Shown here piece by piece: positions 50,702-58,642 of a DNA stretch of 64,000 nt (positions within the stretch are counted from its first letter, which is position 1; every line of letters begins with the position of its first letter). The stretch is from Novosphingobium piscinae. Its GTDB lineage: Bacteria > Pseudomonadota > Alphaproteobacteria > Sphingomonadales > Sphingomonadaceae. A program made the translations under genes and the position numbers. The notes under the pieces were generated by a model, which was not told where the DNA came from, searched no databases, and worked only from the letters and a program-made list of their open reading frames with translations. The stretch covers positions 248,001 through 312,000 of the forward strand of contig NZ_JACLAX010000002.1 of assembly GCF_014230355.1 (NCBI RefSeq), written 5' to 3'.

Positions 50702-51238
50702 TCAGGCCAGCAGTTCGGCCGCGCCGAACAGCCCGGCCCACAGGGCCCCGCTGCTGCCGACGATGATCGCCGCTCGGGCGAGGCGCGGATACTTGGGATA
50801 GCGCTCCGGCGTGGCCGCGCGCTCCGCCGTGACGACCGGTTCCGGCGCGGTGACGGTGGCGGGCGCCGGCTCGGGCCGACGCAGCGCCGGCGGAACGGTG
50901 CGGAGCAGGGCCGCGCTCACCGCCGCGCGGGTCACCGGCGTGGCGAACTGGCAGCCGACGAAAGTGCCGCTGGTCCACACCACCTGCGCCTCGGTCGGTC
51001 CGGCTTCGGGCAGGTCGATGTCGATCACCGTGCCGATGTCCAGCGGTTCGGGCGTTTCGAGCAGCAGCCCGGTTTCCGACATGTCGCGGATTACCGTAGC
51101 GATCGCGCCGGTGCTGGGTGCCAGCACGGCGGCATCGAGATGCAACTTGCGCCGCTCGGTGGCGCGCGCCTCGAGGGGGGCCAAATTGGTTTGCCGGGTC
51201 GAAAGCCATGCCATGCGCGTGATCCTTTGCGCCAGCAT
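50702..51238 (-). CDS. PilZ domain protein with C-terminal membrane helix
   Basis: A 178-residue protein. Residues about 25-105 form a PilZ domain: an R-x-x-x-R motif in EARATERRKLHL and a D-x-S-x-x-G motif in IRDMSETGLLLE, the c-di-GMP binding pair. An Ala/Pro-rich linker leads to a C-terminal helix (AAIIVGSSGALWAGLFGAAE), so it may be membrane-tethered. It lies 47 bases downstream of the usher-like gene on the same strand. ATG 51238 has GAGG upstream; an ATG eight codons later also has a good AGGA. A role as c-di-GMP sensor for the fibre system is inferred from position. Confidence 0.8.
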   Translation of the reverse strand: MLAQRITRMAWLSTRQTNLAPLEARATERRKLHLDAAVLAPSTGAIATVIRDMSETGLLLETPEPLDIGTVIDIDLPEAGPTEAQVVWTSGTFVGCQFATPVTRAAVSAALLRTVPPALRRPEPAPATVTAPEPVVTAERAATPERYPKYPRLARAAIIVGSSGALWAGLFGAAELLA

Positions 51239-51285
51239 GCCGCCTCACCGGTTAAGGAAGTCTTCACGAAGCCGGTTGTGGGCCC

Positions 51286-54200
51286 CTAGGGCGTACCGGT
51301 GGGTTCGCGGGCCTGCAGATGCAGATCGAGCCGCTGCCCCGCGCCATCGCGACCGATCGTCACCGCCGGTTCCCCGACCAGCTGGATCTTGAGCCGTTCG
51401 GCCTGGCCGGGATCAAGCGCCAGCCGGTAGGGCCCCGGCACGACCTTCTCGAACCAGAACGACCCGTCCGACCCGGTCCGGGTGCGGGCGGCGGGCCGTC
51501 CGCCCGGGTCGAGCAGCAGCACGATCACCCCGGAGACGCCGCGCTCGCCTTCGGCGGTGCGGAAATAGGCGGTGCCGTCGAGCTCGCCCAGCGCCCGGAC
51601 CGGGAAGGATTCGACGTGGATCCGGCCCGGCCGGGGCGACAGCTCGATCCCCTCGCTGACCGGGGCGAGATTGATGTCAGGCAGGCTGTCGGCATCGATC
51701 CGCACGCTGGTGCGGGCACCGTCGCCCAGCTTGCCGAGCAGCACGTGCCCGGCCGCGTCGGTTGCCTGGTTCTCGCTGCCGGCGAAGAAGCGCACATCGC
51801 CCAGCGGCGGCTCGCCGGGGCTGAAGCGGCCATCGCCATCGAGGTCGCGGAAGGCATGGAGGGCGATCGCCCCGCCGCTGGCCAGCCCGGTCTGGCTCAT
51901 GAACAGGCGCCCGTCGAGCGGATTGCGGCCAAGGCTGAAGCTGACCCGCAGCATCGCGGTGTACTGCGCCGGGCGGGTGGAGTAGGCACCGTCGAGCGCC
52001 ACCGCGAAGCGCGGGAAGCGGTGGATCGCCGAGAGGCCGAAACGGTCCTGCCCGGCCTCGAACATGTGCGCCGCCGTGGCGGTGAGCGTGGTGTCGGGGC
52101 CGATGCGGCGGTCGACCTGCACCGCGGCCGAGGCGATCCGGCTCCGCGGGGTCAGCTCGTAGCCCAGGCTGGCGCGCAACTGGGTGCTGCGGCGCGCGAG
52201 CGAGGCGAGATCGAAGGCTCCGCGCAGCTGCGTGGTCGTGCCGAACAGCGGCTGGCTGGTGCGGTTGAACTCGAGCAGGTTGGACAACTGCAGGCCGCGC
52301 GACAAGGGCAGGGTCTGGTTGAGCGACCCGGTTAGCACGCGGCGTCCGTCGGCGAAGGCGAGGTTGCGCACCAGCCCGTTGGTGGGCAGACTGAGCCCGG
52401 CGGCGCCCAGGCGAAGCGCGCCGTTGAAGGCCAGTTCGGTGGCCCGGCGCAGCGGCTGATCGCTGAACGCGCGGACCTCGTCGACGAAGCGGCCGCCGTA
52501 TTCGGCATGGTTGAGCGTCACGCTGAACCCGCCCAGCTTGCGCGCCAGCCCCAGGCCGAGCGCCCGCCCGGCGCCGTCGCTCAGCCCAAGGTCGAGCTTG
52601 ACCGCAAAGCCCGCGAAACCGCTGCGCAGCCCGCCGGTGGCAAGCCAGTGGCGCGCTCCGAACCGCTCGTACCAGGCCGCGCCGAGCGCGCCGGTGAGCC
52701 CTCCGCTCAGGCCGTACTGCGCTTCGGCCGTGGCGCGGAGCGATCCGTCGTCGGCGCCCGGCTGGTAGTCGCGGCCCTGCAGGTTGAACAGGGTGCGGTT
52801 CTTCTGCACCGCGCTGGCGGCATAGACCAGCTCGCCCGCGCCGATCCGGCCATCGCCCACGCTGATCTGCCGCACGGTCTCGCGGCGCTGGCCCTGCGGG
52901 CCGTAGAGCACCACCCGGAACACATTGAGCCCGAACTCGACCGGCACGTTGAGGAAGCGGTATTGCCCATTGTCCGGGCCACTGGCCGAATCGATCAGAA
53001 TGTTGTTGCGATAGAGTTCGGCTTCGAAGCCATCGGGCATGTCGCCGCGCAGCTCGATCCGGTCGAACACCGAGGCCCGCTCGAGCGGGGCATTGCCGAG
53101 GAACAGCCCGCGCCCCGCCACGCTGGCCGGGCCCATTGCCAGCGGGGTCGAGGTGACGTCGCCCAGCCCGAAGGCGGTCGCTCCGAGCGGGCCGAGCAGC
53201 CCCCCGTCGGGATCGCGCCGGCCCAGCTCGAGCCGCGCAGCGGTCAGGCCGTTCTGGCTGTCGCCGCTGACGAAGGCACGTGCGGTCAGCCAGGCGAAAT
53301 CGCCGGCCAGCCTGAGGTCGGCCTCGCTGCGGGTGCCGCGGGTGGTGTCGGAGGCAAGGCGCCATTCGCTGTCGAGCAGCGGCAAGTCGAGCGCCCGCCA
53401 CGGCGTCGCCACCTTGGGAAAGCCCCGCCCGTCACGCCGCTGCAGGCGGCCCCTCAGCTGCTCGCGCGCGGTTTCGCGGGCAAGGCGCTGCTCGAAGGGG
53501 AAGGGCACGCGGGTCTGGACCGTCACCGTCTGGCTGCGCAGGTTGGGGGTGAGTGTCAGCGGGAACAGGTCGCCGAAACGCTCGGCCCGCAGATAGAGTT
53601 CGCCGTCGAAGGCCACAGCGTCGCCCGGCGCCAGTTTGCGGGTCTGGCCGTCGATGGTGACCGTACCCTCGCGCAGGTTGAGCGTGATCGTGCGGGTGGG
53701 ATCGATCGCCCAGCCGGTGGCATAGCGTCCGCCGTCGCTGACCGTGACCGCCAGATCGAGAAAACGCGCGATCTCGCCCAGCGGCAAATAGGGGATGCCG
53801 CCCTGGGTGTAGGCGATGATCGTGCCGGTCAGCTCGTTACGGGCCGTGGCGATCTCGAGGATCAGCTCGTCATCGTCGGCAAAGCCCGCGACCGGCTCGG
53901 CCGCCCGAACCAGCCCGTCACCGCCGCGCGGCACCGGCGTGCCGGCGACCGGGACGGCGGTGATGGGGGCAGTCGCTGCAGGAGCGGCCGGGGTGTTCGC
54001 GGCGACCGCCGCGGTGGGTTCGGGCATCGGCGCCGCGGGCGTGGTCGCTGCGGCCGTCGCGGGAGGGGCGGGCGCGGCTGGAGCCGGGGGCGCGACCGGG
54101 TCGGACTGGGCAGCTGCCAGTGGTGCGGGCGGCAGCGTGGCGGCGGCGTCCGGATGCGCTGGGCTCGGGGTCGGCCCAGAGGCGGGCGGCTCGGCTGCGG

Positions 54201-54945
54201 GCCGGGGCAAGGGGGCATTGTCGTTGGCCGGCGGGGCAGCGGCCGGGAGCGTGAGCGGGGATGGGGGCGGGGGCTCGGCCGGAGCCGCCCGGTGCTCCGC
54301 ATCCGCCAGCCCGAGCAGCGGCTCGCGCGGCTGGACCACGCCGGCGAGGCCCTGGAGGCTGGGCACCTCCGCCGCCGCCGCCGGGCGGGGCGGGGCTGAG
54401 GGTGCGGGCGCGGCTGCGAGGGGCGGATCCGGCTCCGAAGCGGCAGCGGGGGCCGTCGGCGGCCCATCGGGTGCGAGCGGAGGCAAGGCCAGCGCCGCGA
54501 TCCGGTCAGTGCGCGTGGCCGGCCGGGCAACGGCACCGGGCTCAGGCGCGCCTGGCTCGGCCCCCGGCGACGGGACAGGGGGCGGCTGGACGTCAGGCGC
54601 GGGGAGAGCGGGAGGCTGGAGCGCGTCGTTCGCGGCAACCAGCGTGGCGCTACGGCGCGGGCGGCCAACCACCAGTCCACGCAGCGAACTGTCGGCGGGC
54701 GGGCCGGTCCAGCGGCGCGGCGCGCCGGTTGTCGGGCGCGGTGCCAGAGGAGGGCGCAGACCGGGCGCCGGCTGCGGAGCCGGCTTGGCCCTGTCCGCTG
54801 TAACGGCGGGCGCCTGCGCCCCATCCAGCCCCGCGCGCCGGGCCGGTTCCGCCTCGCGCCCACAACGTTCGACCAGCAGCAGCAGGCTGGCCGAAATCAC
54901 CGCCCCGCCGACACGCAGGGCGGCGCGGCGGCGGTGCGGGTTCAC
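51286..54945 (-). CDS. Usher-like outer-membrane protein with long Pro/Ala-rich N-terminal extension
   Basis: A 1219-residue protein. Residues 1-25 contain a basic start and one hydrophobic helix; residues about 30-350 are Pro/Ala-rich and low complexity. A periplasmic domain follows (about 355-480, IPYLPLGEIARFLDLAVTVS). The barrel-plug region is usher-like: AELYRNNILIDSASGPDNG, VEFGLNVFRVVLYGPQGQ and the strand-rich barrel to about 1000. C-terminal domains include HAFRDLDGDGRFSPGE and the carboxypeptidase-regulatory-like GSDGSFWFEKVVPGPYRL. Typical PapC ushers are 800-900 residues. It overlaps the chaperone gene by ATGA. It would export DUF4402 subunits. Confidence 0.7.
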   Translation of the reverse strand: MNPHRRRAALRVGGAVISASLLLLVERCGREAEPARRAGLDGAQAPAVTADRAKPAPQPAPGLRPPLAPRPTTGAPRRWTGPPADSSLRGLVVGRPRRSATLVAANDALQPPALPAPDVQPPPVPSPGAEPGAPEPGAVARPATRTDRIAALALPPLAPDGPPTAPAAASEPDPPLAAAPAPSAPPRPAAAAEVPSLQGLAGVVQPREPLLGLADAEHRAAPAEPPPPSPLTLPAAAPPANDNAPLPRPAAEPPASGPTPSPAHPDAAATLPPAPLAAAQSDPVAPPAPAAPAPPATAAATTPAAPMPEPTAAVAANTPAAPAATAPITAVPVAGTPVPRGGDGLVRAAEPVAGFADDDELILEIATARNELTGTIIAYTQGGIPYLPLGEIARFLDLAVTVSDGGRYATGWAIDPTRTITLNLREGTVTIDGQTRKLAPGDAVAFDGELYLRAERFGDLFPLTLTPNLRSQTVTVQTRVPFPFEQRLARETAREQLRGRLQRRDGRGFPKVATPWRALDLPLLDSEWRLASDTTRGTRSEADLRLAGDFAWLTARAFVSGDSQNGLTAARLELGRRDPDGGLLGPLGATAFGLGDVTSTPLAMGPASVAGRGLFLGNAPLERASVFDRIELRGDMPDGFEAELYRNNILIDSASGPDNGQYRFLNVPVEFGLNVFRVVLYGPQGQRRETVRQISVGDGRIGAGELVYAASAVQKNRTLFNLQGRDYQPGADDGSLRATAEAQYGLSGGLTGALGAAWYERFGARHWLATGGLRSGFAGFAVKLDLGLSDGAGRALGLGLARKLGGFSVTLNHAEYGGRFVDEVRAFSDQPLRRATELAFNGALRLGAAGLSLPTNGLVRNLAFADGRRVLTGSLNQTLPLSRGLQLSNLLEFNRTSQPLFGTTTQLRGAFDLASLARRSTQLRASLGYELTPRSRIASAAVQVDRRIGPDTTLTATAAHMFEAGQDRFGLSAIHRFPRFAVALDGAYSTRPAQYTAMLRVSFSLGRNPLDGRLFMSQTGLASGGAIALHAFRDLDGDGRFSPGEPPLGDVRFFAGSENQATDAAGHVLLGKLGDGARTSVRIDADSLPDINLAPVSEGIELSPRPGRIHVESFPVRALGELDGTAYFRTAEGERGVSGVIVLLLDPGGRPAARTRTGSDGSFWFEKVVPGPYRLALDPGQAERLKIQLVGEPAVTIGRDGAGQRLDLHLQAREPTGTP

Positions 54946-55910
54946 GGTAGGACGAAGTCCTGCTTGGCCAGCACCTTGCCCGGTGCGGTGTCATCGTCGG
55001 TGTAGGTCGCGGTCAGGCGGGCACCGCGCACCAGCAGGCGCGGATCGGCCTTGGGGTTGAGCGGCACCTGCACACTGCGGCTGTCGACTTCGGTGTAGAC
55101 CCCCACGCCGAGCACTTCGGCCACTGGCACCTTGCTGCCGGCCATGGTGATGCGGATGTCGCCAAAGGCCGAGCGGGTTCCGGCACGGGTGATGGTCAGG
55201 TTGATCGTCCGCCCGGCCGGTCCCTCGCCCAGCGCCAGGTCCTTGAGACCGACCGCCAGCGTGGTCTCGCCGACGCGGACGATCACCGGGATCGAAATGC
55301 CGAACCGCGGCACGATCCGCACACCGATCCCCTGGCTCGGCGCGGTGCCGGTGGCGCTGTCGATGCTGAGCGCGTCGGCGGCAGGCGGGGCCGAGACGAT
55401 GGTGAAATGCGAGCGATACTCGCCCGGGGCGAGGCCGGGCGGGACGCGGACCATCACGCGCACGGTCTGCGCCTCGCTGCCGCCCAGCGCGACCCGGCGC
55501 GGCGACCAGCGCAGCATCGCCGCAGCCGAACGCAGCCGGGCACGGGCGGCTGGGTCGGTCACTGCATCGAACTCGAGCAGGTTGCCTTCGGGGGTCATCA
55601 GCTTGTCACCCACGGCGATGTCGTACTCGCCAGGGCTGGCGCTGCGGTTGTAGAGCCCGATCGTGGCCAGCCGGTTGCGGTCGTCGATCACCAGCCGCTT
55701 GGGATAGATGTTGACGTCGCCCATGCCGCCGACCGAGCCGGCCGGCGGGGTCGCCGCCGCTGCGGCGGACGCGGGCGGGGATGCCGGTTGGGCGTGCGCG
55801 CCATTCGTCACGCCGAGGCCTGCGGCGATCAGCCACCCAAACAGGGGCCGCCCGAGCAGGGCGAGCCCGGACCCCAGGCGCGGCTCAGGGCAGTGTGGTG
55901 AGCTGGACAT
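54942..55910 (-). CDS. PapD-like fimbrial chaperone
   Basis: A 322-residue periplasmic protein with a signal peptide (TNGAHA then Q) and a Pro/Ala linker. An immunoglobulin-like chaperone domain follows: VNIYPKRLVIDDRNRLATIG (strand A with the subunit-binding basic residues), LRWSPRRVALGGSEAQTVRV and PGEYRSHFTIV, the usual PapD G1/F1-like order. It is larger than classical chaperones (about 230). Start 55910 has GGAGG just upstream; an ATG seven codons earlier is possible. It presumably delivers DUF4402 subunits to the usher encoded next. Confidence 0.8.
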   Translation of the reverse strand: MSSSPHCPEPRLGSGLALLGRPLFGWLIAAGLGVTNGAHAQPASPPASAAAAATPPAGSVGGMGDVNIYPKRLVIDDRNRLATIGLYNRSASPGEYDIAVGDKLMTPEGNLLEFDAVTDPAARARLRSAAAMLRWSPRRVALGGSEAQTVRVMVRVPPGLAPGEYRSHFTIVSAPPAADALSIDSATGTAPSQGIGVRIVPRFGISIPVIVRVGETTLAVGLKDLALGEGPAGRTINLTITRAGTRSAFGDIRITMAGSKVPVAEVLGVGVYTEVDSRSVQVPLNPKADPRLLVRGARLTATYTDDDTAPGKVLAKQDFVLP

Positions 55911-56000
55911 GGGCCTCCGCTGTCGGTGCAAAACGATCCGATCGGACGAGGCTATGGGAAATCACGGAATCGAAGGCAATGCTTCGTTCCCGCCGGCCGC

Positions 56001-56558
56001 TCACTGATACACAGTTTGCAGCGTGTAGGTGCCGGTATAGGTGCCCACCGCCTGGTTGGCGGCGAGGGTCAGCGTGCCGCCGACGCGGAGACGGAAGGTG
56101 TTGGCGGTTGGCGTCTGGCTGATCAGCTGCAACGAACCGGTGAGCAGGCTGACCGGCATGGTCGCCGCCCCGTTCGACAGGGTGAAGCTGCTGGGTCCGA
56201 ACACGACGAAGAAGGTGTTGGGCGCCACGGTGACGGTGAACTCGCCGGCGCCAGGCCCGCCGCTGGTCTGGGCGATCGCCTCGTTGCCCGCTGCGCCGCC
56301 GGTCGTCGTCACCGTGCCGGCCGGGCTCAGCCGGACCGTGCCTGCGGAGGTCGGCTGGATGATCTGGCCGAAGCGCATGTCCGCGGTGTTGGCCATGCTC
56401 ACCGGCTGCAACACGCGCGCCGCGGCCGAACCGCTGGCGAGCGCGACATTGCCGGTCCCGGCTTGGGCGGCCGTGGGGGCCAGACCCGCAACCGCGAGGC
56501 CGCTCAGTGCGGCGGCCAGGGCAAGGTGGCGAAGCTGCATGGGGGTGCGAAGCCGCAT
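56001..56558 (-). CDS. DUF4402 domain protein 1
   Basis: A 185-residue secreted protein with a signal peptide (PTAAQA then G) and one DUF4402 domain. The N-terminal strand block has ARVLQPVSMANTADMRFGQI, and the tail NTFRLRVGGTLTLAANQAVG followed by YTGTYTLQTVYQ is the DUF4402 hallmark ending. It lacks cysteines. The start may be six codons downstream. It is one of four paralogues upstream of the chaperone and usher genes and is a probable fibre subunit. Confidence 0.85.
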   Translation of the reverse strand: MRLRTPMQLRHLALAAALSGLAVAGLAPTAAQAGTGNVALASGSAAARVLQPVSMANTADMRFGQIIQPTSAGTVRLSPAGTVTTTGGAAGNEAIAQTSGGPGAGEFTVTVAPNTFFVVFGPSSFTLSNGAATMPVSLLTGSLQLISQTPTANTFRLRVGGTLTLAANQAVGTYTGTYTLQTVYQ

Positions 56559-56625
56559 GGGGTGCCGGGAGGCCGCGCCCGACCGGATCCTGGTGGTCCG
56601 GCCGGGCGCGATCCTGCCGCAGTCC

Positions 56626-57138
56626 TTACTGGTAGGTCACCGTGACGGTGTAGCTGCCGGTATAGGCGCCGGCCGCCTGGCCACTGGCCACGGTCAGCGT
56701 GCCGCCGACGTTGAGCGCATAGGTGCCTGCCGCGGTCAGGGTGGCGCTGGTGCCGGCCGAGACGCTGAACGGCATGGTCGCCGGGGCCGGACCACCGGTC
56801 GACACGGTGTTGCCGGTCGAGGCCGCGATGTTGAATGCGCGGTTGGCCGTGCCGGTGACCGTGAAGGCGTCGGCGGTGGGGGTCGAACCCGTCACCAGCC
56901 CGACGTCGCCGCCGGCGGTGGCCACACCGGCGGCGGTGACGACCACGGTGCCGCCCGTTCCGGCGGTGAAGCTGCCGAAGTTCAGTGCGGCGCCGTTGGT
57001 GTGGGTGATCTGCAGCGGACCGACCACGGTGGCATTGGCGGTGCCGGTGGCGGTGGAGGTGTTGCCGGTGGCGGCCTGGGCCGAACCGCTGGCGAAGCCG
57101 GCGGCGAGGGCGGCCATGAGTGCAATCTTCTTCATCAT
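56626..57138 (-). CDS. DUF4402 domain protein 2
   Basis: A 170-residue secreted protein: signal MMKKIALMAALAAG ending SAQA then A. The DUF4402 domain starts ATVVGPLQITHTNGAALNFG and ends YALNVGGTLTVASGQAAGAY, followed by TGSYTVTVTYQ. It is Ala/Thr/Gly-rich with no cysteines and is the most regular of the four, with its own 156-base AT-richer upstream region and a GGGGAAAC ribosome-binding site. That suggests it is the major, most strongly expressed subunit (inference). Confidence 0.9.
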   Translation of the reverse strand: MMKKIALMAALAAGFASGSAQAATGNTSTATGTANATVVGPLQITHTNGAALNFGSFTAGTGGTVVVTAAGVATAGGDVGLVTGSTPTADAFTVTGTANRAFNIAASTGNTVSTGGPAPATMPFSVSAGTSATLTAAGTYALNVGGTLTVASGQAAGAYTGSYTVTVTYQ

Positions 57139-57294
57139 CTGTTTCCCCGATCTGCGTCTCGGGCGCTAGGTTCCGAGAGCGCCCCAATCCTGCGGCGTCG
57201 CTGCTCGGCAACAGCGCCACGGTGCTCGATCTAGGGGATGACCAGTTAACAGCTGACTAAGTGCAAACTCCTAAGTGTTTTGTCGTCGCGTCAT

Positions 57295-57882
57295 TTACAG
57301 ATAGGTCACGATGACCGGGACTTGCGCGGTATAGTGGCCTTCTGCCGCGCCGGCCGGCAGGTGCAGCGTGCCGCCGACCTCGAAGTGGTCGCGGCCCACG
57401 GGCGAGAGCTCGCCGCCGCTGCCGCTGCGGGTACTGGCCGCGGCGATGGTCAGCCCGTCGATGCGCACCGGCACGGCGCCGCCCCCGCTCCCGCCGCTGG
57501 TGGCGGTGATGGTCAGGCTGTCGGGAACGACCACGCGGTAGCTGCGCAGCGGCTCGCCCTCGACCGCGAAGCGGGCGGGATGCGGCGCCGGGCAGGCCAG
57601 GGCGCAAACTCCGCTGGCGCCGCCGGTGTAGCGGGTCCCTCCGCCGAGCGGGGCGACGGCCACTGTGCCGGGGCCGCTGGCGGCGATGGCCACGGTCCCG
57701 AAGTCGAGATCGGCTTCGCGCGCCACGGCCAGCGGCGCGACGACCTGCGCTGCGGCCGAGCCGCTGGCGCTGGCCCCCGGCGCAGCCGCGGCGGGCGCGG
57801 CGAGCAGGGCCAAGGGCAGGACCAGGGGCGGGGCCAACGCCAGCACCGGCAGCACAGTGGGCGGGCGTCCGCGCCTGATCAC
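57295..57882 (-). CDS. DUF4402-like domain protein 3
   Basis: A 195-residue secreted protein with a long hydrophobic signal (LLAAPAAAAPG) and the DUF4402-type strands AQVVAPLAVAREADLDFGTV and FEVGGTLHLPAGAAEGHYTA, ending VPVIVTYL. It has a Cys pair in SGVCALACPAPH that the first two paralogues lack. Translation starts at GTG 57882, overlapping the stop of DUF4402 protein 4 in GTGA, so the two are coupled. The frame stays open further upstream but only inside the neighbour. Confidence 0.8.
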   Translation of the reverse strand: MIRRGRPPTVLPVLALAPPLVLPLALLAAPAAAAPGASASGSAAAQVVAPLAVAREADLDFGTVAIAASGPGTVAVAPLGGGTRYTGGASGVCALACPAPHPARFAVEGEPLRSYRVVVPDSLTITATSGGSGGGAVPVRIDGLTIAAASTRSGSGGELSPVGRDHFEVGGTLHLPAGAAEGHYTAQVPVIVTYL

Positions 57883-58436
57883 AGTTCGGCCAACAGACGG
57901 GCGGTGACCTGCAGCGGGAAGCTGAAGCTGGCCGCGGTGGACCCGCCGCTCAGGGTCAGCGTGCCACCGACGCGGATGCGCGTCTCGCACAGCAGGGCTG
58001 CGCAGGGCGTCAGACGCAGGGTGCGGCTCTGGCCGTTCGTCAGGCCCAACAGGCCGGGCAGGTCGGTGGCCAGCCCGGTCAGGGTGCCGGTACTGCCATT
58101 GACCGTCAGCGGGCTGGCGGTCGCCAGGGTGACCAGCAGCAGCGCCGACCGGCCGGGGCTATCCGGGCGGTAGCGCAGGATGAATTCCGCCGCACCCTCG
58201 CGCGCGCCCGGCACGGCTGCCAGACCGCTGGCGGTGATGCGGCCATCGGGGGTGATCTGCTTGCGTGCCGCGCCGAGCACCACCATCGCCCCGAAATCGA
58301 GTGGCTGGACCACGACCAGTTCAACCGTCCCGGCGGCGGCCGGCGTGGCGGTCAGGGCCAGGCCCGCCGCAGCGATGCAGCCGATCCCCGCGCGGCGGTA
58401 ACGCGAAGCGGGTGGATTGGAACAAGGGTGGCGCAT
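57879..58436 (-). CDS. DUF4402-like domain protein 4
   Basis: A 185-residue secreted protein: signal ending TATPAAA then G, an N-terminal strand block TVELVVVQPLDFGAMVVLGA, and the ending RIRVGGTLTLSGGSTAASFS followed by FPLQVTARLLAEL. It carries two Cys in LRLTPCAALLCETRI, which could form a disulfide. The start at 58436 (MRHPCSN) has AGGA about nine bases upstream. It is the first gene of the minus-strand cluster; the divergent sequence suggests a tip or adaptor role rather than the main subunit, by analogy. Confidence 0.8.
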   Translation of the reverse strand: MRHPCSNPPASRYRRAGIGCIAAAGLALTATPAAAGTVELVVVQPLDFGAMVVLGAARKQITPDGRITASGLAAVPGAREGAAEFILRYRPDSPGRSALLLVTLATASPLTVNGSTGTLTGLATDLPGLLGLTNGQSRTLRLTPCAALLCETRIRVGGTLTLSGGSTAASFSFPLQVTARLLAEL

Positions 58437-58565: not shown

Positions 58566-58642
58566 TGGTCGGGGAGAGAGGATTCGAACCTCCGGCCCCT
58601 GCCTCCCGAAGACAGTGCTCTACCAGGCTGAGCTACTCCCCG
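58566..58642 (-). tRNA. tRNA-Pro (anticodon CGG)
   Basis: A 77-base cloverleaf on the minus strand with the CCA end encoded (58566-58568). Acceptor stem CGGGGAG/CTCCCCG, D-arm with AGCTCAGCCTGGTAGAGC, anticodon stem CTGTC/GGCAG around loop TTCGGGA (anticodon CGG, reads CCG), and T-arm GGAGGTTCGAATCCTC. All stems pair. Confidence 0.97.

Follow-up and report, generated by a model that had tools for sequence, protein, structure and literature searches.

Positions 50702 to 58436 of the window, the 64,000-nucleotide stretch of Novosphingobium piscinae DNA analyzed here, carry six pilus-type genes and a PilZ gene, all on the minus strand in the order T-d2-d3-d4-C-U-PilZ. The first six very probably form an operon for a chaperone-usher pilus, with the DUF4402 proteins T, d2, d3, and d4 as the fiber subunits, C as the periplasmic chaperone, and U as the usher. 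On the strength of predicted folds, the system belongs to the chaperone-usher superfamily. It is predicted to form a separate branch of the pathway, to which the archaic (sigma) group is nearest as judged by the chaperone. A preliminary description of this DNA had proposed such a cluster of four DUF4402 genes with chaperone, usher-like, and PilZ genes that overlap or lie close together, and the coordinates, Pfam matches, and predicted folds bear this out: the start of d2 overlaps the stop of T as GTGA, and the C and U genes share 4 bases.

All four small proteins exceed the curated cut-off of the Pfam family DUF4402 (PF14352). T scores weakest, and a comparison of T with the DUF4402 profile gave 97.1% (P 6.6e-11). 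The alignment rows of the d subunits (54/54) and of T (34/34) match DUF4402 alone (E<=0.01). Two Cys are invariant in the T family (34 rows) and d2 has two in its mature part, while d3 and d4 have none. When queried by sequence against the PDB, DUF4402 gave chance matches alone (E 0.65 and 1.1).

The association of these proteins with a chaperone and an usher was surveyed in 147 genomes of the window's order, Sphingomonadales. PF14352 matched in 35 genomes (34 over the cut-off), the chaperone profile in 35, and the usher profile in 36, including one weak match restricted to the C terminus (G056). DUF4402, chaperone, and usher were found together in 34 of the 147. The sole DUF4402 genome without chaperone and usher (G083) holds a 24-residue match below the cut-off, and in the sole chaperone-usher genome that PF14352 does not match (G133), a custom profile finds DUF4402-like open reading frames (ORFs). 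Apart from one remnant, the three components occur together or are absent together. They are also physically linked. On the same strand, every chaperone match (36/36) has an usher no more than 6 kb away, and 34 of the 36 have a DUF4402 gene no more than 3 kb away; the exceptions are G110, where the subunit genes lie alongside on the opposite strand, and G133.

DUF4402 matches 14 of 348 genomes surveyed across the phylum, 11 of them over the cut-off (7 inside the order and 4 outside). Two of the four outside genomes (G497 and G388) carry both the chaperone and usher profiles beside DUF4402. A third (G474) has an usher by profile and a chaperone by custom model, and the fourth (G394) has a chaperone by custom model and an 831-residue CarboxypepD_reg neighbor that is a candidate usher only. 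The three sub-cut-off genomes of this survey have neither chaperone nor usher. Among 118 genomes of the phylum to which the Deltaproteobacteria bin L066 belongs, a DUF4402 match was found in L066's own genome only. Outside the order, the system thus has a wide but thin distribution.

The gene order was compared in 63 loci fetched via the chaperone from genome contigs, nearly all of them from Novosphingobium and erythrobacters, plus L066. DUF4402-type genes are present in 61 of the 63 (276 ORFs, including those of the window), and an usher lies beside the chaperone in 58, an association that exceeds chance. The two loci without subunits begin at a contig end inside or just before the chaperone gene, and in the five without an usher the contig ends within about 1.1 kb after the chaperone. 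The order T-d2-d3(n)-d4-C-U is conserved across loci. With each subunit typed by its nearest window type (267 of 271 ORFs assigned), T-d2-d3-d4 is the commonest arrangement (25 loci), followed by T-d2-d3-d3-d4-d3-d4 (8 loci). Subunits of the d3 type occur in all 61 scored loci, 23 of which have two or more copies, and are the best conserved (median identity of 52.7%, versus 39.9% for d2, 37.3% for d4, and 30.3% for T). The d2 type occupies the second position as a single copy in most loci, and d4 types are present in two or three copies in 12 loci. In L109 (genome G110), the subunit genes are divergent from the chaperone and usher genes. Six loci (L013, L014, L016, L025, L027, and L067) share a similar translated stretch between the last subunit and the chaperone, in frame past the subunit stop.

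The subunits differ consistently in their N termini. Counted between the predicted signal-peptide site and the conserved FG, the N-terminal segment has a median length of 15 residues in 51 T proteins and 30 residues in 214 other subunits. In 50 of the 51 loci, T has the shortest segment of all the subunits; in the exception, L006, one d value is 11. Eleven of the 276 ORFs were left out of this count (six cut by a contig end, two without the FG, and one each without a signal site, antisense, or without a profile match), and a cruder earlier version of the count gave 14 versus 30, with more outliers. The extra residues precede the Pfam DUF4402 domain, which begins at mature residue 21 in d4. On inspection by eye, a single short subunit accompanies long ones in the distant clusters L066, L103, L104, L107, and L126 as well. 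According to PMC9452303, subunits of chaperone-usher pili have an N-terminal extension that completes the subunit ahead. By analogy, the extension of the DUF4402 subunits would serve as a donor strand. T, which has no extension, could therefore only be the first subunit, and it is predicted to sit at the pilus tip. The missing extension would allow tip subunits to be recognized from sequence by a simple rule.

Neither C nor U is recognized by the standard families. C has no PapD match in Pfam (E<=1) or in NCBIfam, and U has no Usher (PF00577) match in Pfam (E<=1) or in NCBIfam, so that the PapD-like and usher labels fall outside routine annotation. By sequence, C and U gave no meaningful match in the PDB (none; one chance match, E 3.2). 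C has at least 690 public relatives, with no precomputed Pfam domain among the 120 listed. U has at least 248, and CarboxypepD_reg, SdrD_B, and PF22904 are the only Pfam domains among the 120 listed. The listed relatives of both proteins are named "hypothetical protein," "carboxypeptidase-like regulatory," or "SD-repeat containing."

The predicted fold of C is that of a two-domain PapD-type protein, matching FimC, EcpB, and CfaA, and C is accordingly predicted to be a PapD-type periplasmic chaperone. Profile comparisons agree with this assignment. The widened C family (22 rows) scored 98.8% (P 6.8e-17, 211 columns) against six archaic-type chaperones, taken from the vicinity of SCPU genes in the same class, 93.7% (P 1.9e-7) against three classical K-12 chaperones, and 1.5% against EcpB; a control comparison of the chaperone with the subunit profile gave 0.7%. 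The 29 close rows alone scored 95.4% against the archaic and 15.4% against the classical chaperones. Two distant members of the family pass the PapD_N cut-off of 23 (L066 with 29.1 bits and L103 with 24.9 bits), and L102 and L113 come near it. Among the 29 close rows, three match PapD_N, with a best E value of 0.047. As a control, Pfam detects all six archaic-type chaperones of the same class (36-72 bits). In a tree of 32 sequences, the 22 DUF4402-linked chaperones fall on one side of a branch with support 97/97; the references are a small set (six archaic, three classical, and one alternative), and many branches are long.

Several residues of C are strongly conserved. The Pro of its SPRR motif, a candidate for the proline conserved in the first domain of pilus chaperones, is invariant in the 29 close rows, kept in at least 90% of the 22 wider rows, and aligned on a Pro of CfaA in a weak HMMER alignment (E 0.56). 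At least 90% of the 22 rows likewise keep the Arg of GEYR together with an Arg and a Tyr in domain 2; the carboxylate anchor of archaic chaperones consists of an Arg in strand F of domain 1 and an Arg and a Tyr in domain 2. The PKR and PRFG Arg residues, candidates for the two basic anchor residues in domain 1 of classical chaperones, are invariant in the 29 close rows, the latter being lost in distant rows. The Arg and Tyr residues were mapped from sequence. As a separate observation, a Gram-positive WxLIP protein comes closest in sequence to the widened C profile among solved chains (E 0.0014), a hint that WxLIP proteins and pilus chaperones may be connected.

The prediction for U is an outer-membrane barrel with a plug, of the FimD type, its model aligning to FimD over the plug, the barrel, and a C-terminal domain. 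The PapD-like and usher labels of the preliminary description thus agree with the predicted folds, although Pfam and NCBIfam are silent. The U family scored 92.5% (P 4.8e-7, 156 columns) against four archaic-type ushers and 1.1% against classical ushers; as a yardstick, the comparison of archaic with classical ushers gives P 5.1e-31 over 706 columns. Pfam detects all four archaic-type control ushers of the same class (94-130 bits). The protein had been called "giant," and it owes its size to a 326-residue tail (residues ~31-356; 27% Ala and 25% Pro) before the N-terminal domain. Across the 37 usher ORFs with the motif, the N-terminal domain starts between residues 57 and 508 (median 335; 25 others lack the motif or are short). 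Inner-membrane anchoring of U, considered on account of the long Pro-rich tail, was dropped in view of an Ala-x-Ala-like site in several homologues, though it may still apply to the window's own U. Two distant ushers (L066:4412-8563 and L104:1855-5430) carry a C-terminal SPOR domain, as if linked to peptidoglycan, and the L066 usher has a weak Cu_amine_oxidN1 match in its N-terminal domain.

In the assembly scheme that we propose, C would donate a strand to each subunit and so keep it in the periplasm, and U would receive the C-subunit complexes and thread the growing chain outward. The ~15-residue N-terminal extension of each subunit would displace the strand of C in the subunit ahead. With T at the tip, d2 is predicted to be the adaptor beneath it, and d4 would be an adaptor or the base. 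The d3 protein is the best candidate for the rod (major) subunit, because its type is present in all loci, often in multiple copies, and is the best conserved. The preliminary description had named "protein 2" as the major subunit; if the second gene was meant, the third gene, d3, appears the better rod candidate and T the putative tip.

DUF4402 genes outside the operon may feed into the same machinery. The window genome has one distant copy (C40:107715-108074), which retains the extension and shares 72% identity with d3 across 151 residues. At L105, L108, and L111, DUF4402 genes lie far from chaperone and usher and are often paired. Such copies are likely served by the chaperone and usher, because they are found only in genomes that have both, and they could represent alternative subunits for the one usher. 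In one other lineage, a 330-residue protein encoded after the usher at L110:2744-3736 has a DUF4402 domain at its C terminus and is possibly a two-domain tip adhesin.

Several results weigh against DUF4402 proteins as chaperone-usher fiber subunits. The Fisher's exact test of co-occurrence (P 4.6e-31) ignores kinship. On the question, raised in the preliminary description, of whether DUF4402 genes usually occur without chaperone and usher genes, the survey came out in favor of the proposal, all 34 over-cut-off genomes carrying both, although 70 of the 136 DUF4402 matches are unlinked and 66 lie within 6 kb of a chaperone (the 136 include three below the cut-off, and some distances were lost to contig breaks). 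The FimD alignments of the U model leave the N-terminal domain uncovered. The preliminary description had also asked whether the DUF4402 fold is complete or takes a strand from the chaperone. In a single-chain model of d4 fused to the chaperone by read-through translation (predicted template modeling score of 0.53), both domains were modeled well, but the segment expected to donate the strand, 371-386, formed no strand and had only one bridge residue, so that no donor-strand pairing was seen. In this model, d4 is all-beta, with a predicted local distance difference test score of about 88-97 over mature residues 21-150 and low values over the first ~20 residues; the structural-match list spans residues 243-504 only and is silent on pilin likeness. 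Finally, DUF4402 matches the archaic SCPU pilins weakly and C-terminally (38%, P 3.4e-4, 33 columns), and beyond this match there was no support for DUF4402 as plain SCPU. The proposed role of DUF4402 is nevertheless supported by the co-occurrence, the extension pattern, the chaperone and usher folds, and the chaperone tree.

The operon could also encode an ordinary archaic (sigma) pilus that has merely diverged, a reading that we consider possible but rather unlikely. The chaperone family is nearer to archaic-type than to classical chaperones, the conserved GEYR basic residue and the domain-2 Arg and Tyr resemble the archaic anchor described in PMC4654587, and by eye the subunits show the LxFG and C-terminal Tyr pattern of SCPU proteins. 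However, SCPU (PF05229) matches none of the 54 DUF4402 rows and nothing in the window's genome, and the window proteins escape the Usher and PapD_N families that detect the archaic controls. The match of the usher family to archaic ushers also falls far short of that between archaic and classical ushers, and the DUF4402-linked chaperones form their own clade, within the limits of the small, long-branched tree. It is improbable that C and U instead export nonpolymerizing DUF4402 proteins, so that single or short units coat the surface in a polyadhesin-like or capsule-like layer and no long pilus forms. The single-domain character of T and its sisters, the window operon's want of a separate lectin-like adhesin, and the many subunit types per genome, with unlinked copies in addition, would fit such a coat. 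Nearly all non-T subunits, however, keep the N-terminal extension expected for subunit-to-subunit complementation, and d3-type genes occur in multiple copies. It is very improbable that the PapD-like protein is a WxLIP-type surface or wall anchor, and no chaperone, beside a generic exporter barrel. The Gram-positive WxL/WxLIP proteins share the PapD-like domain and include the nearest solved chain by sequence, but rank lower structurally for C; to our knowledge, these systems have no usher and no outer membrane.

The PilZ gene, which the preliminary description had counted as part of the system, is a neighbor and no conserved component. Elsewhere, 31 loci have an ORF of at least 100 residues on the same strand within 300 bases of the usher (25 of 29 neighbor families listed); a PilZ gene occupies this place in one of them (L040) and a gene for a GGDEF-EAL protein in another (L038). 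A tRNA-Pro (cgg) gene lies on the minus strand immediately upstream of T, at 58566-58642. A consensus-based scan of the operon for promoters and terminators found none.

Table 1. Genes of the predicted DUF4402 pilus operon and the adjacent PilZ gene (window positions; start codons of T, d2, and C picked by eye)
Gene	Position	Strand	Likely start	Pfam match	Features and predicted role
T	57879..58436	-	ATG 58436	PF14352, E 9.9e-8	DUF4402, short N terminus; predicted tip
d2	57295..57882	-	GTG 57882	PF14352, E 6.5e-23	N-terminal extension; predicted adaptor under tip
d3	56626..57138	-		PF14352, E 1e-22	N-terminal extension; predicted rod (major) subunit
d4	56001..56558	-		PF14352, E 1.3e-25	N-terminal extension; putative adaptor or base
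C	54942..55910	-	ATG 55910		Periplasmic chaperone, two immunoglobulin-like domains (predicted fold)
U	51286..54945	-			Usher: N-terminal segment, Ala/Pro-rich tail, N-terminal domain, plugged beta-barrel, SdrD_B/CarboxypepD_reg-type C-terminal domains (predicted)
PilZ	50702..51238	-		PF07238, E 5.9e-10	PilZ-domain protein, 47 bases past usher

The preliminary description had also taken the system to be undescribed. In keeping with this, searches of open PMC full text, a body that leaves subscription papers and preprints outside, returned nothing on DUF4402, PF14352, or chaperone-usher systems with Sphingomonadales or Novosphingobium; for Erythrobacter, the sole match concerned PAS and Cache domains. 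DUF4402, a Pfam family of unknown function, thereby gains a concrete predicted role as a pilus subunit with named partners. The data suggest that censuses of chaperone-usher pili based on PapD_N and Usher overlook this branch in about a quarter of the order's sampled genomes (35/147) and in a few distant ones. If true, this would add a further widespread branch, extending from alphaproteobacteria to a Deltaproteobacteria bin. We are evenly divided on the broader proposal of a fourth branch beside the classical, alternative, and archaic ones, in which every structural part, from a single-domain tip lacking a donor strand through the rod to the base, is a DUF4402 protein and the giant-tailed usher also serves subunits from distant genes, so that the cell could swap subunits.

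Among known systems, the alternative (alpha) pili, represented by the E. coli common pilus (EcpB/EcpC/EcpA), resemble this one in the chaperone fold, which matches EcpB and CfaA. There was no profile link to EcpB, EcpC, or EcpA, which as single sequences are weak probes, and no alternative-type Pfam match in the window proteins. The classical type 1 pili (FimC/FimD/FimA) share the FimD-like plug, barrel, and C-terminal domain and the FimC-like chaperone fold. The profile link to them is weak, and the basic residue aligning near the classical G1-strand anchor is lost in distant members of the C family. The closest likeness by chaperone profile is to the archaic (sigma) pili, such as Csu of Acinetobacter (CsuC/CsuD, SCPU), which share a PapD-type chaperone, a plugged usher, and beta-strand subunits with an N-terminal extension. 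We keep the system out of the archaic group because it has neither an SCPU subunit nor a PF00577 usher. Its subunits are DUF4402 instead of SCPU proteins, d3 and d4 being without Cys, and its C and U lack the family matches of their Csu counterparts. The Csu tip is the two-domain CsuE, according to PMC9452303, whereas the first-position T is single-domain. In addition, unlike the Csu usher, U combines an SdrD_B/CarboxypepD_reg-type C terminus with a very long Ala/Pro-rich N-terminal tail.

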